Source of the DNA: Tilletiopsis washingtonensis | Taxonomy: Eukaryota; Basidiomycota; Exobasidiomycetes; Entylomatales | Assembly: GCF_003144115.1 (NCBI RefSeq) | Contig: NW_020312002.1 | Span: forward strand, 476,859-540,858 | Reading direction: 5' to 3' | Length of the DNA: 64,000 nt | Shown here: positions 56,076 to 61,933 of the stretch, piece by piece | How the letters are laid out: each line of letters opens with the position of its first letter | Position numbering within the stretch: position 1 is the stretch's first letter | Made by a program: the position numbers and the translations under genes | The notes under the pieces: generated by a model | What the model was told of the DNA's origin: nothing | The model's input: the letters and a program-made list of their open reading frames with translations, nothing else | Databases searched by the model: none

Positions 56076-58315
56076 ATGCCGCGCCGCCGCGCCGACGTCG
56101 CGCTGCGCAGCGAGCCCGGCCCCTCGTCGGCACCGGCGCTCGAGCGCCGCACCATCGCCCGCGGCGCACGCATCGTGCTGCGCCCCGGCTTCGCCAACGG
56201 CCAGCTGCAGTATGCCGCGCCCATCGTGCTCGGCGACCAGAGCTTCTATGTGCAGCTCGACACGGGCAGCAGTGACTTGGTGCGTAGATGCCAGATGAGC
56301 GCAGGGTGCCAGGATGGGCTGGCAACTCGCGACGCTCTCCGACAGCCTGCGAGCAAGGCCCGACGCGAGGTCTGGAGCGCGCGCTGAAGGAGGTGGATGC
56401 GTGCAGCGCCAGGCCGATGAGGTGGCATCTCGTTGCTTATGACGACTGACACGCCTGCGCAGTGGGTCGCCTCGACGGCGTGCAACACCGCCAGCTGCCG
56501 GCCAAAGACTGGCAATGTGCCACGCTACAATGCTGGAACCAGCACAGCGCAGCGCACGGTGCGTGCTGCTGGCCTGGCCTCGCCCGCTGCCTGCTCACGC
56601 GCATCCGCAGAACCGCGATCTCTCCATCACCTACCTGGCAGGCAGCGCCGCTGGCCCCATCCTCACGACCAACACCAACTTTGGCGGCGCGAGTGTCTCG
56701 CACCAGGCCTTTGCGGCTGCGAGCGACGTGCAGTCGCAGCAGCTGGCGTCGATGGGCGTCAGCGGCGTCCTCGGCCTGGCGTTGCCCGCCAACAGTCTGA
56801 TCCAGGAGACGCTGGAGGGCGCGGGTCCGTCGAACCGCAACAACAGCCAGACGGACCCGAGCATGACGGGCAACATCTTGCCGGGGCTGTGGAACAACAC
56901 GATCGCCGGATCACGGTGAGCGGCATGCCTTGCGGCAGACAGCACTGGCGCTGACGCTCCCGCAAAGATACTTCAGCATCGGCTTGCAACGACTGCCGTC
57001 CGACGGCGGCAACGGCGAGTCGTCGCTGACGTTTGGCGGCGTGGACCAGGCGTACATGTCGACGCCGGCGCAGTTCTCGTGGCAGGCCGCGACCGCAGAC
57101 GGCGACGGCGTGACGCGCAAGTGGACGAGTCTGCTGACGCAGCTGCTCGTCACTGTCAACGGCACCGACGTGCCCATCACCACGCCGGCGCTGAGCGGCG
57201 CATTTCCTAAGGCCATCTGGGACACGGGCGCGTCGTTCAACTACGCCACGCCCGCGATTCTCAACGCGCTCTACGGCGCCTATGGCATCGGTCCGTCGAA
57301 CGATGGCAGCCGCGGCTACTACGTGCCCTGCGATCTGCTCATTCAGATCACGCTTGTGATCAATGGCCGCTCGCTCTGGACGCACCCGCTGGACAACAAC
57401 CTGCGCGGCGGGCAGGGCCCCGGCGCCAGCTCCAGCGGCTGCTTCGCCAGCTTTCAGCCGCTGCTCTCGGACAATCCGCCGGCCGACCTGGTGCTTGGCG
57501 CGCCGTTCATGCGCAGCGTGCCGACAGCCTACAGCTGCGACTCCATCCTGGAGAATCCGCCGCCGGGCGTCGCCACGACGCCGTGCGACCGGCCACAGAT
57601 CGGCGTCTTCTCGCCGTACGAGAACGACACGTCGCGCGCGGCGGCGCGCGACCAGTTCCACCAGGTGCGCGTGCTGGGCCGCAGCCTCGGCGACGACTCG
57701 AAGATCGAGGCCGGCGTCGGCCTCAACAACACCGACGAGGCTGCTGGCCGCGGCCTCAGCTCGGGCGCACGCATTGCCATCGGCGTCGTGTGCGGCCTCG
57801 TGGCCATCCTCTTCGTCATGGCCGCCGTCGTGCTCTTCTACAAGCGGCGACGCGCCCGCAGGAACGCCCTCGCTGGAGGTCGGCCCGGCGAAAAGGAGGC
57901 GGACGACCCGTTCCTCACGGCGCCAAACGTCTCGGCCAAGGAGCGTGCGGCGCAGCGCGAGCTGCTCATCCTCAATGGCCGCCTGCCCGAAGAGGTCATT
58001 GGTCCCGCCGACGACCAAGGCAACGGGCTCGCGGCGCCCACAGCCGACTGGGACACGGGCTCCAAGGGGTACTGGGAGGCGCGTGCCGTGGCCAACGACT
58101 GGAAGCGGCGCATGAAGGACGAGGAGGACGCCGCGGCGGGCGTCACGGGCCTGGCGGGCAACCGCGGCAGCGGCTCGTCGCATGCCTCCAACTCCAGCGC
58201 GCGCCGCCCGAGCATCGCGCGCATGAAGTCGGGCGAGGAGGAGTACGAGATGTCCGACGCCGGCAGCACCGCGGCGCTGCAGGGCATCTCGCGCCGACCC
58301 GACGACCACCTCTAG
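56076..58315 (+). CDS. Membrane-anchored pepsin-type aspartyl protease
   Basis: Exons 56076-56279, 56463-56558, 56611-56915 and 56968-58315; 650 residues. Both catalytic motifs are present: QLDTGSSDLWVAS, rebuilt by the first splice, and AIWDTGASFNYATP. The lobes also show NILPGLWNN and VLGAPFMRS. After the protease domain a single membrane helix (IAIGVVCGLVAILFVMAAVV) is followed by a basic stop-transfer KRRRARR and a ~150-residue cytosolic tail rich in Asp/Glu/Ser. Such anchored fungal proteases act at the cell surface or vacuole. No signal peptide follows the chosen ATG; an in-frame hydrophobic stretch just upstream lacks an ATG, so a further 5' exon may be missing. The gene lies 207 bp from the downstream Fanzor gene on the same strand. 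Confidence 0.87.
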
Positions 58316-58522
58316 TTCCTGTGCCCCCTACTTCCACTTTCTCGCTCTCTCTCTTGCTGTACTCTTGTCTCTCTCTCTCCATCGTTACCATCTATACTCT
58401 GCTGAGACGTGTACGCCCGGAATGTGGCCAGATTCAGCTGCCCATCGAGCGAAAGCAGTGCCACCGCACGCATCTGGCTGAGCAGTGTGACCTCCCGCCC
58501 GTAGAGTGCCACAGCATCACGC
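58316..58522. other. Short gap between protease stop and Fanzor start
   Basis: 207 bp: first a T/C-rich stretch (ctctctctcttgctgtactcttg) that could end the protease transcript, then mixed sequence with an in-frame stop at 58502 just before the Fanzor ATG. No inverted repeat matching the sequence beyond the Fanzor gene was seen. Confidence 0.4.
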
Positions 58523-59868
58523 ATGCTGAAGCACGGCTCGTCGGCGGTCTCGTGGGCGCGACGGAACTCGACGGCGGCAGGACTGGCCGAGTCGGACACC
58601 CACGTTGCGATCGCGCACTCGCGAGCGCGGACGTATCGAGGCGTCTTGCAGCGTGCGAGCAGGCCAATGCCGCCCGACGCCACGCTCTCGCTGCGCGTGA
58701 ACATTGCGCAATGGTCGATGAAGAGCGCCGAGGCCACGGCCGCCGGACGCCCAGTGCACTACGTGGGCATGGACCCCGGGATCAACAACGTGATCACGGC
58801 GGCGCGCGTCTTTGACCTCAAGGAGGGCACGCTGTACACGCTGCCCGGTCAGCAGACGCACCCGGACGGCCGCAAGCCCATCACAGACGCAGAGCGCCAG
58901 GACGCCGGGCTGCCGGCGCTCGACCCGAGCAAGAACGGCCGCACGACGCGCGACCCGCTCTTCCGTGCAACTCAGGCGGACACGGAGGAGTACGGGCGCA
59001 TCCAAGCCATCGCACTCACCAAGGGCACGCTCGACGAAGAAGCCAACCGGATCAGCGCCAAGATCCAGATGCTCGAGGCAGAGCACGAGCTGCCCGACAC
59101 GGCGGATCCCGGCACGCGCGAGCGACACAAGGCGGCGTTCAACCAGCGGCCCGATGTCAGCGCACTGCGCGACCTGCGGATGGTGGTGCAGGTGCGGCAG
59201 CGCAACCTTGCCGTCATGGCCATTCTCGAGTGGCTGCTGATGCGCGAGGGCGGAGTGATGGCGGAACGCCATCAGGGATGGAGCAGGGACGGCGCGCTGG
59301 TGGTGGTCAACATTGGCAACTGGCAGTGAGTCTAGCGCGCGCGGTGTTGCCTGCTGCCGCTGACCATCCTGCAGGTCCGTCAGGCGCGTCGGACTCCCGG
59401 CGCAGTGCAGCAGCGAGATTCTGCGGCGGTGCACGGCGCTCACCGAGATCCACGGCCTCCCCATCGTGTGGCGCCTGCAGGACGAGTACCTCACATCGTC
59501 GGTGTGCCCGGCCGGCTGCCTCTCAAAGGACGGCGCGCGCGTTGACGGCAAGGCTAATCCGCAGGGCACGTCTCAGCGGGTGGCGGCGCTGCGCAAGTGC
59601 TATGGCAACACTCCGTGAGTCGCCACTGGCATCCTTGCATCAAGTGCTGTGCTGACTCCTCCTTAGCCTGCGCGACGTCAAGTACTGCCCCTGCTGCGAC
59701 CGCGTCTTTGCGCGAGACGTGCTGGGCGCGCTCAACATCCGAGCTGCGGGCATGCACGAGCTGGCGTACAACACAGGGGCCTGGAGGCTGCGCAGAGCAG
59801 AGTCGGAGAGCATAGCGGCGCCTGCACCCCACACGGGGCGAGGCACGCGTGCCGCCGCTGGCTCGTAG
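58523..59868 (+). CDS. Fanzor-type RuvC nuclease (eukaryotic TnpB relative)
   Basis: Exons 58523-59325, 59375-59614 and 59667-59868 (introns 49 and 52 nt); 414 residues. Fanzors are eukaryotic relatives of transposon TnpB, and characterised ones are RNA-guided DNA nucleases. The split RuvC site is complete: motif I VGMDPGINNVIT (Asp84), motif II LQDEYLTSSVCP (Glu305) and motif III FARDVLGALNI (Asp365). Before motif II stands VVVNIGNWQSVRRVG, the usual Fanzor G-N block. Zinc-finger-like cysteines are CPAGC and YCPCC, the first pair spaced by three rather than two. Residues 100-260 are helical. The N-terminus before motif I is only ~83 residues, far shorter than in TnpB or known Fanzors, so the protein may be truncated or its upstream exons unrecognised. 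GC-ending codons match host genes. Confidence 0.85.
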
Positions 59869-59880
59869 TGAAGACCTACA

Positions 59881-59932
59881 GTTTGTGCATAAACCCACGA
59901 ACCTGGGCGGTTCTTGCAAGGTTTCGGCAAAC
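59881..59932 (+). ncRNA. Candidate guide-RNA scaffold: three small hairpins after the Fanzor stop
   Basis: The 143-bp gap after the Fanzor stop contains three short perfect stems in a row: GTTT-gtgcat-AAAC (59881-59894), GAACC-tgggc-GGTTC (59899-59913) and GTTT-cggc-AAAC (59921-59932). The stretch is less GC-rich than its surroundings. In known TnpB and Fanzor loci the guide RNA comes from non-coding sequence next to the 3' end of the gene, so position and structure fit. Stems are only 4-5 bp, so chance or a 3'-UTR signal for either convergent gene remains possible. Confidence 0.35.
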
Positions 59933-60011
59933 TTCGGTTGACGGGCCTGTGTGGGAACGACACCCCAATCAGAGACGCCATGTACATTGAGCATCAGCAA
60001 CCAGCCACCCC

Positions 60012-61933
60012 TCAGATGTCCTCCGCGGCAAGCTCCAGTTGCGGGCCGTACGGCTTGACGTTGAAGAAGCTCTGGTCAAACCAGTTGACGCGGACTGCAG
60101 AAGGGCGTCAGGTCCAAGGCCGCGCCGACCGGCTGCGCGCGTCACTCACCGTAGCCGTCCTCGCCGCCGCTGGCAAAGCACTTGCCGCTGGGGTGCACAA
60201 TGATGGAGTGGATGGGGCCGAAATGTTGTCCGATCGTCGCTGCGCGCAGGAGCGGGTCAGCAACGGCACGACTGACAGCAAAGCGGCGCAGCAAGACGCA
60301 CAGCACTCCTCCTCGAACACCTTGTGCCAGAAGCGCGCCTCGAAGCGGCCCTGCCGTGCCGACGTCGTCGTGACGTTCATGGCATCCTGGCCGCCGCCAA
60401 TGATGACGTATGGCCGCGTCGGGTGGATGGCGGCGCTGTTCAGAGGCGTGGCGGTGGTGTACGTCTTGAGAATCGAGAGCGATTTTGTGTCGATGAGCTG
60501 CGCGTGCGGATGTGTCAGTAAAGATGAGAGCACAGGGCTGGCAATGTGCGGCGCCCAAGAGCAGCATAGGCTCGTCCAGACGCAAGCCGACGGCTGTCCC
60601 GCAGCCGCGCGGATGCGCTCGGCGTGGCCCAGAGAGCACCATCCGCTGCTGCGCGCACGCAAAGGGCGGTCACAGCCCTTCCCGCACGAAACCCTGCAGC
60701 CCAGACCCCGCGCGCGCAGCCATGCAGCACTCACCTTGCTCGTCTTGTCCTTCGAGCTGGTGATGCAGTACGTCTTGTCTGCGCTCATCTGCAGGTCCGT
60801 GACAATGTGGTCGGGGTGGGCCATGACGCTGTTCTCCTCCAGCTCAGCGTCGACACCGCTCTCCGGCTCCTTCTCGTCGTGGTAGTAGAGCGCCACCTTG
60901 CCGTTGTCGTGGCCCGTGACGATGTACTGGTCCGCCGGTGCCCAGGCAGCGACAGTGGCCTTGGGGCCCGAGAAGGTAATGACGCGCAGCGGCTCGCGGC
61001 TCTGCGTCGTCCACGACGCCGGGTCGCGGTTGATGCGGAAGACCTGCAGCGTGCCGCGGAAGCCCATGCGCTGCTCGGTGATGGCCAGCACCTGCGTGCC
61101 GTCCTCGGAGAAGGCGACGCGCTTGACGGCCGTGTCGAACTCCCACGTGAAGATGCACTTGCCCGACGCCACCTCGTACAGCTTCATCTGGTTCGCCGCG
61201 GAGCCCGTGATGAGCAGCGACGACGTGTCTGTGCGCACTGGCGTCAGCCGCTGTGGGATGCGGAAGTGCAGCGTCGCGACAGCCCGCCCTCTCGCACGCC
61301 ACCTCTACTATCCTCGCGCGCGCTGTTGCCCTGCGTGCCAACGCGCATCTCTCTCTGTGTGCCTTGCCAGCTCCTCTCCAGAACGACGAGAATTGAGCAC
61401 GGGCGCCGCTGTGTGCTACCTCGCCTGCGTCTCGGAGCGCGCGCGCCTGTATGCGCAGCTGGACGAGCGAGCCGCAGTACTGCACCTTTCACTTGCGCCT
61501 GTCACTCCCTGCTCAGGCTGCACCCCTCCAGCTGCCCAACAGCGCTCATCGACAGCTTCGCCAGCGCACACTCCGTGCCCTCTGCGCCACTCCGCTGCTC
61601 TGCCGCTCTGCTATGCACGCCACTCTCGCGCAACGCTGCCGTCTGCCCCACCCCCGCCTGCCGCCCACTCACGGTCCGGGTCGATGCTCCAGACACTGCC
61701 GTTGTTGCCCTCGTACGTGCCGAGGCGCTCGCCGTTGTGCGAGTACCACACATTGACGACGTTGTCCTTGCTGCAGGAGAAGAGCAGGTCGCCCTCGCGG
61801 TTGAACTTGATCTGGTTGAGCGCACGCTCGTGGCCCGAGAGAAGGAGCGGACGCTGCGGGGCAAGCAGGAGCGGCAGCGTCAGCAGTGCTGCGGCAGTGT
61901 GGTGCGCAGCAGGTGCCGCGATGCGCTCACCAT
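60012..61933 (-). CDS. TIF34: Translation initiation factor eIF3 subunit i (WD40 protein, Tif34)
   Basis: Exons 61933-61931, 61853-61673, 61228-60735, 60497-60302, 60239-60150 and 60094-60012; 348 residues, normal for eIF3i. It is a seven-bladed WD40 propeller that joins eIF3b and eIF3g in the eIF3 complex. Exon 1 is the ATG alone; the splice gives [19 protein letters not shown], the standard N-terminus. Repeats include [89 protein letters not shown] and [20 protein letters not shown]. Introns of 444 and 237 nt interrupt the gene beside short ones (55-77 nt). It converges on the Fanzor gene and diverges from the PP2C gene. Confidence 0.93.

Follow-up and report, generated by a model that had tools for sequence, protein, structure and literature searches.

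The Fanzor motif, D-X(125,275)-[TS][TS]XX-C4-X(5,50)-RD, comes from Bao and Jurka in 2013 (PMC3627910), and the accessible part of their Table 1 shows the fungi Spizellomyces, Rhizopus, Allomyces, Phycomyces and Mucor together with some yeasts. For SpuFz1, the Fanzor of Spizellomyces, the available portions of PMC11423790 give D383, E541 and D606 as the catalytic residues, and attribute the binding of guide and target in known Fanzors to WED and REC. In the available sections of Saito et al. (PMC10432273) the omega RNA of Spizellomyces lies between the stop codon and the 3' repeat, ghost loci occur, and no transposase is placed between the Spu-1 repeats.

We have analysed a 64-kb stretch of the genome of Tilletiopsis washingtonensis (the window; C5:476859-540858, 68.5% GC) and searched the genome (18.7 Mb in 32 contigs) for relatives of a gene found there. 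We consider it likely that this gene is a 5'-truncated, probably inactive remnant of a once mobile Fanzor family that carries a fused FEN1-like domain.

The Fanzor-type gene of the window

The three-exon gene described in the first-pass annotation was recovered: segments 58523-59325, 59375-59614 and 59667-59868 of the forward strand join in phase into 414 codons followed by TAG. The catalytic triad (D84, E305 and D365) is in place in the spliced translation, and so are the four cysteines proposed for a zinc finger (C312, C316, C355 and C358), to which a further one, C357, has to be added. The Fanzor-homologous part of exon 1 (58726..59325) holds the start of the RuvC domain with D84 (58772), a long insert and the VVVNIGNW strand. 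Exon 2 (59375..59614) contributes E305 in QDEYLTSSVC (59484) together with C312 and C316, and exon 3 (59667..59868) the cysteines C355/C357/C358, D365 (59716) in ARDVLGALNI and the TAG stop. Both predicted introns are as short as first described, intron 1 with 49 nt (59326..59374, GTGAGT...CAG) and intron 2 with 52 nt (59615..59666, GTGAGT...TAG). They are found at the same positions in the relatives C25 and C15 with other lengths (55 and 52 nt for the first, 123 and 50 nt for the second, respectively). The stretch 59788-59868 encodes a 26-residue tail beyond the point where C25 stops, absent from C25. The GC-ending codons are host-like, as had been noted, with a GC3 of 0.86 compared with 0.90 in the neighbouring protease and 0.95 in the eIF3i exon. 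The identity of these two neighbours was also borne out by Pfam: the 3' part of an aspartyl protease gene (56930..58315, forward strand; PF00026, E 5.2e-8) and eIF3i (60111..61238, reverse strand; PF24805, E 1.7e-65), the latter seen as a stop-free frame running across its introns.

Sequence comparison supports the assignment of the gene to the Fanzor-type RuvC-TNB nucleases. The full long motif is present, with D84, 223 residues, T308 S309 xx C312...C358, 5 residues and R364 D365. The TNB family matches all five members of our RuvC alignment at E <= 1 (best 1.4e-6), with C19 above the Pfam cut-off (29 bits) and the window copy alone below it (22.1 vs 26.3 bits). Among solved structures the top match of the family profile was the Spizellomyces Fanzor 8gkh, with a weak E of 0.079, keeping GDW on GDW and DEYLTSSVCP on DEYKTSSVCP in register; the Glu of the latter motif would be E541 of SpuFz1. 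The sub-threshold TNB score of the window copy and the weakness of the SpuFz1 match are what an unrelated RuvC-like or zinc-ribbon family merely resembling Fanzor might give, but with the complete motif, the TNB matches throughout the family and a Fanzor as the best structure, aligned in register over DEY-TSSVCP, we regard this as extremely unlikely. Against PDB sequences the window protein gave chance matches only. For this query and for alignment A3, built from three of the four full-length copies, 8000 candidate proteins each were scored and none reached E <= 1e-3. Viral contigs searched with alignments A1, A2 and A3 gave no confirmed relatives.

The 5' end of the model fared differently. 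Its residues 1-66 (58523-58720) had been taken as part of the gene and have no homology to the family; the start codon of this segment (58523..58725, forward strand) is doubtful, and an in-frame stop lies upstream at 58502. With C25 and C15 the family homology sets in at 58726-58730 (by BLASTN at 58727 and 58726, respectively), and with C1 and C19 at 58754. Antisense to the proposed 5' end there is another ORF (58312..58737, reverse strand), without a match in Pfam, that has relatives at C8:98-370 (E 6.5e-10) and C8:125054-125311 (E 8.8e-7); from these two its conserved portion extends over approximately 58390-58671. The relative at the end of contig C8 adjoins a stretch read as RNase H2, and the one at 125 kb sits within an open frame that encodes 651 aa or more.

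The word intact, used earlier of the catalytic site, is misleading, as the front half of the gene is missing and only the RuvC-TNB half is found in the window. When the four full-length relatives were compared with the 64 kb by tblastn (E <= 0.01) only RuvC-TNB was recovered and no counterpart of WED/REC. Lacking this N-terminal region, the gene is filed here as a fragment derived from a Fanzor rather than a complete one. The RuvC exon of C25 and C15 starts at a predicted intron ~35 nt before the point where window homology starts, so that the break lies at or near the start of this exon. An assembly error is unlikely, since the break is inside the contig with genes on either side, and so is a retro-copy, since the introns are retained.

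Full-length relatives and the flap-nuclease-like domain

Contrary to an earlier suggestion, the gene is not solo, since the same genome contains four full-length relatives and five partial pieces. The window protein finds 14 matching stretches at 7 places, the window included, and the flap-nuclease-like domain used as query finds 10 stretches that include three further partial places. The full-length gene models are those of C25 (1438 aa), C15 (1389 aa), C1 (1360 aa) and C19 (1357 aa). In the alignment the D-E-D triad is intact in the four of them, the last Asp of C19 being the one in ARDM (the neighbouring SRDV is another site). Over RuvC-TNB the window protein is 67% identical to C25, 49% to C15, 35% to C1 and 32% to C19, and its coding DNA is 69% identical to that of C25. 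The partial pieces are nearest to different copies: C5:860110-860888, which is flap-nuclease-like, to C25; C6:726627-727019 to C1; C15:119350-119688 to C19; and C8:79106-79213 (93% of 30 aa) and C6:869530-869655 (51% of 37 aa) to the window copy, indicating that several sub-lineages were once multi-copy. From the dispersal of these pieces we infer that the family was mobile. No near-identical duplicates of the protein-coding part were found in the genome. The piece at C5:860110-860888 is located on the window's own contig, ~324 kb away, and might be what the window copy lost at its front. Terminal repeats had not been seen at first, and at the four full-length loci no left-right inverted pair was listed either (E <= 1e-3) in a search that covered ~0.9-1.3 kb upstream of each full-length start. 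A near-perfect 64-bp palindrome (96.9%) is found at L020:4723-4786 (C8), close to a partial window-like Fanzor piece (L020:4835-5012).

Upstream of the Fanzor part, on its strand and within one predicted gene, each of the four full-length copies carries a FEN1/EXO1-like (XPG/Rad2) domain. The order is the same throughout: this domain (381-415 aa in the section used for alignment A1), then a charged linker, the middle part and finally RuvC-TNB. The middle part has ~470-540 aa (474-536) and is in the place of WED/REC by position, not by fold. The FEN-like domain starts with MG and has the acidic motifs VD, WDG, EAD, DxD and TDY in this order in every copy; the invariant columns are V57 D58, W113 D114 G115, E206 A207 D208, D230, D232 and T308 D309 Y310. 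We take these motifs to be the active-site acids of FEN1. Pfam XPG_I_2 matches three of the four members (best E 6e-4) and XPG_I one of them, under the curated cut-offs in both cases (19.9 vs 24.2 bits and 15.5 vs 24.9 bits), and the C25 domain is also under the curated cut-off in the search of its own genome (20.8 bits). For this reason the domain is named FEN1-like and not filed as a family member.

Among 3147 ORFs (from overlapping loci, duplicates included) the best non-family match of the FEN profile, at E 1.4e-4, was an exon of apparently EXO1-like type whose EAD and DSDLL align with the EAD and DSDLL of the profile. The second such match came at E 0.23, and host RAD2-like and YEN1-like ORFs were not among the best 50 matches listed. 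When A1 was compared by hhalign with three XPG pieces of the host, P was 0.0079 (probability only 5%) with the XPG-I motif in register, against 0.37 for each of the controls (the reversed host XPG pieces and A2). Against PDB, the C25 domain had no match and the FEN profile a single unrelated one (E 0.097). Two JGI metagenome proteins also carry the domain with its acidic motifs kept, P0001 (99% to C25) and P0002 (65% to P0001 over 350 aa). With a mean pLDDT of 34.6, the structure predicted for P0001 with P0002 was unusable, and therefore FEN1-like is meant here at the level of motifs, together with the sub-threshold profile matches.

The fusion of this domain with Fanzor in one protein is a prediction made from DNA. 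In C15 and C1 the frame crosses the junction with neither stop nor intron, and in C25 and C19 it is bridged by predicted GT-AG introns of 51 nt and 208 nt, respectively, that restore FGT in phase; all four have a similar motif, FG(T/I/L), at the junction. Unspliced, C25 and C19 have a stop between both parts, as would be expected if the flap-nuclease-like domain and the Fanzor were two separate neighbouring genes of one element, but the uninterrupted frames of C15 and C1, the shared motif and the phase of the two introns make such an arrangement unlikely. What appears new, within the searchable literature and with no claim of priority, is this combination of a Fanzor with a flap-nuclease-like domain. 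Among the matches listed, the literature on Fanzor fusion or domestication contained no such fusion by title, that on Fanzor, transposons and XPG no paper naming both Fanzor and XPG, and that on FEN1, flap endonucleases and PIN domains one review in which Fanzor and FEN1 are each mentioned a single time. Nothing was found joining Fanzor with Basidiomycota or OrfB_Zn_ribbon with XPG.

The conserved unit after the stop codon

The earlier description of the gene had missed a conserved noncoding unit of 98 nt located directly after the stop codon (59868..59966, forward strand), with two predicted hairpins, that is a candidate omega RNA scaffold. Its 25-nt core, TTTGTGCATAAACYCACGAACCTGG, searched throughout the genome with up to 3 mismatches, was found three times in forward orientation (in the window, C25 and C11) and not once in reverse or in the control; window and C25 differ at one of its 25 places. 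The complete unit is 87% identical between the window and C11:167850-167946 (L035:4851-4947). There it follows the stop codon of a RING-encoding host gene (read as RAD5-like) without a gap, and tblastn found no Fanzor piece within the 9.9 kb around it. Model R1 gave six matches in 11 sources, three strong and three (E 0.17, 0.32 and 3) treated as chance, and no match at the C15, C1 and C19 loci. Rfam gave a single chance match, far under the cut-off, on 58300-60200.

The fold z of the unit was -3.00 in C11, -3.25 in C25 and 0.06 in the window, so in the window copy the sequence is conserved and the fold is not unusually stable. We have also measured z at three nested lengths after the stop (90, 110 and 130 nt). 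The values were -3.79, -2.49 and -3.04 for C25; -2.34, -3.66 and -2.13 for C15; -1.72, -4.36 and -4.73 for C1; -2.61, -2.60 and -2.43 for C19; and 0.45, 0.17 and 0.60 for the window. Values of z <= -2 were obtained in 11 of the 12 measurements from the four full copies vs 4 of 100 background windows (98 nt, forward strand, not restricted to post-stop DNA), none of which reached -3. With the structure based on C11 as reference, five pairs differ in the window, four of them staying paired via G-U and one being broken. C25 keeps the first hairpin and the base, including one pair preserved by changes on both sides, and the second hairpin is absent.

Origin of the window copy and comparison with known systems

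By Nei and Gojobori counting with Jukes-Cantor correction, dN/dS between the window gene and C25 is 0.33 over 313 codons, compared with 0.47-0.87 in the other nine pairs. Neither indel nor stop separates the two over these shared codons, and the length of intron 2 differs by 71 nt. In a neutral simulation the share of stop-free sequences was 25% at 5% divergence, 5.4% at 10%, 1.4% at 15% and 0.4% at 20%. At 57 columns the other four copies are identical, and the window shares their residue at 53 of these. It has 22 unique residues and C25 has 20, and this lack of excess is not expected of an old dead copy. Unique nucleotide changes by codon position were 28/22/45 in the window and 21/25/42 in C25. 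These comparisons suggest that the window lineage was under protein-level constraint for much of the time since the split from C25. Of the earlier suggestion of a remnant still under selection, the constraint itself is visible; with a single genome compared it is not datable to after the truncation, and it may predate the loss of the front half.

The first-pass annotation had left the choice between a mobile remnant and a domesticated nuclease, and the remnant is the better of both, although it is not solo and the word intact is misleading here. A domesticated, functional host gene using RuvC-TNB alone, as an unguided nuclease or as a regulator of the full copies, would account for the 313 codons shared with C25 with no stop or indel, the low dN/dS, the distribution of changes over codon positions, the agreement at conserved columns and the host-like GC3. 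We find it very unlikely nevertheless, in view of the lost front half, the unremarkable 3' RNA fold and the existence of partial sister pieces. The part that binds guide and target in known Fanzors is missing, the proposed start is antisense to another conserved ORF, the window 3' RNA has none of the stability seen in C25 and C11, and the constraint may be older than the truncation. Some observations were counted against the remnant as well: neither terminal repeats nor near-identical recent copies were found, there is no excess of amino-acid changes on the window branch, and the C11 unit fits a 3'-UTR element too. This last point leads to another reading, in which the 3' unit belongs to the host, as a 3'-UTR or some other element, and is no Fanzor guide RNA. 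It would fit the C11 copy beginning directly after the stop of the RING gene, the z of 0.06 in the window, the mere three units found in all, the single hairpin that C25 has in common and the failure of R1 to find anything alike at C15, C1 and C19. Still, the unit has the position of the Spizellomyces omega RNA, from the stop to the element end in the sections available of PMC10432273, the full-length copies have foldable RNA after the stop, and the core differs at only one place between window and C25 while their coding DNA is only 69% identical, so that we hold the host element to be rather unlikely.

For the truncated remnant, the preferred reading, the full-length members indicate what the intact form might have done. 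They are predicted as single proteins of 1357-1438 aa with the FEN1/EXO1-like nuclease domain at the N-terminus; the RNA just past the stop would be the guide scaffold, with the guide taken from flanking DNA. The Fanzor part would cut under RNA guidance, the flap nuclease fused to it would then trim the DNA ends, and both activities might help the element to persist or to copy itself with no transposase of its own. In the window copy the FEN-like part and the place of WED/REC are gone; without WED/REC its product would not be expected to work as a guided nuclease, and it is most likely an inactive remnant. It is possible, and we propose it only tentatively, that the family encodes a bifunctional enzyme, Fanzor cutter and FEN1-like flap nuclease in one polypeptide guided by the post-stop RNA, that would spread or persist without a transposase, with the window and C11 loci as by-products or extra guides. 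A flap nuclease within the predicted gene suggests an answer to transposase-less persistence, namely an end-processing enzyme supplied by the element itself. If true, a single enzyme would couple cutting with the processing of the ends, and the family would offer a testable natural fusion of a guided cutter and a repair-type nuclease. The locus also calls for caution, as an intact RuvC triad by itself is no proof of an intact Fanzor.

Compared with SpuFz1 (PDB 8gkh), the window family has in common the DEYxTSSVCP motif before the zinc ribbon. In the accessible part of PMC3627910, however, SpuFz1 is encoded by a single ORF of 633 aa, inside an element that has terminal repeats, and no flap-nuclease domain is described there, whereas the window copy is devoid of WED/REC and repeats were not found at the full-length loci. 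The candidate noncoding RNA after the stop, the partial copies and the gene-less 'ghost' loci within one genome are similar to what the available sections of PMC10432273 describe for Spizellomyces. The Fanzors of Bao and Jurka resemble ours in the long motif and the fungal hosts, and in some viral elements of the Mariner type Fanzor is accompanied by other nucleases, but in the portions of that paper available (PMC3627910) these companions are GIY-YIG or restriction-type and separate proteins. With FEN1, EXO1 and XPG (Rad2) the family shares the MG start and the ordered acidic motifs VD, WDG, EAD, DxD and TDY, in a domain that here is very divergent, under the Pfam cut-offs and fused to Fanzor. 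Finally, TnpB of IS200/IS605 and IS607 combines a RuvC-TNB nuclease with a guide RNA at the 3' end, as the family described here would. Unlike TnpB, the window copy is missing one half, and the family is eukaryotic, with introns and, in its full copies, a large middle part and a flap-nuclease-like N-terminus.
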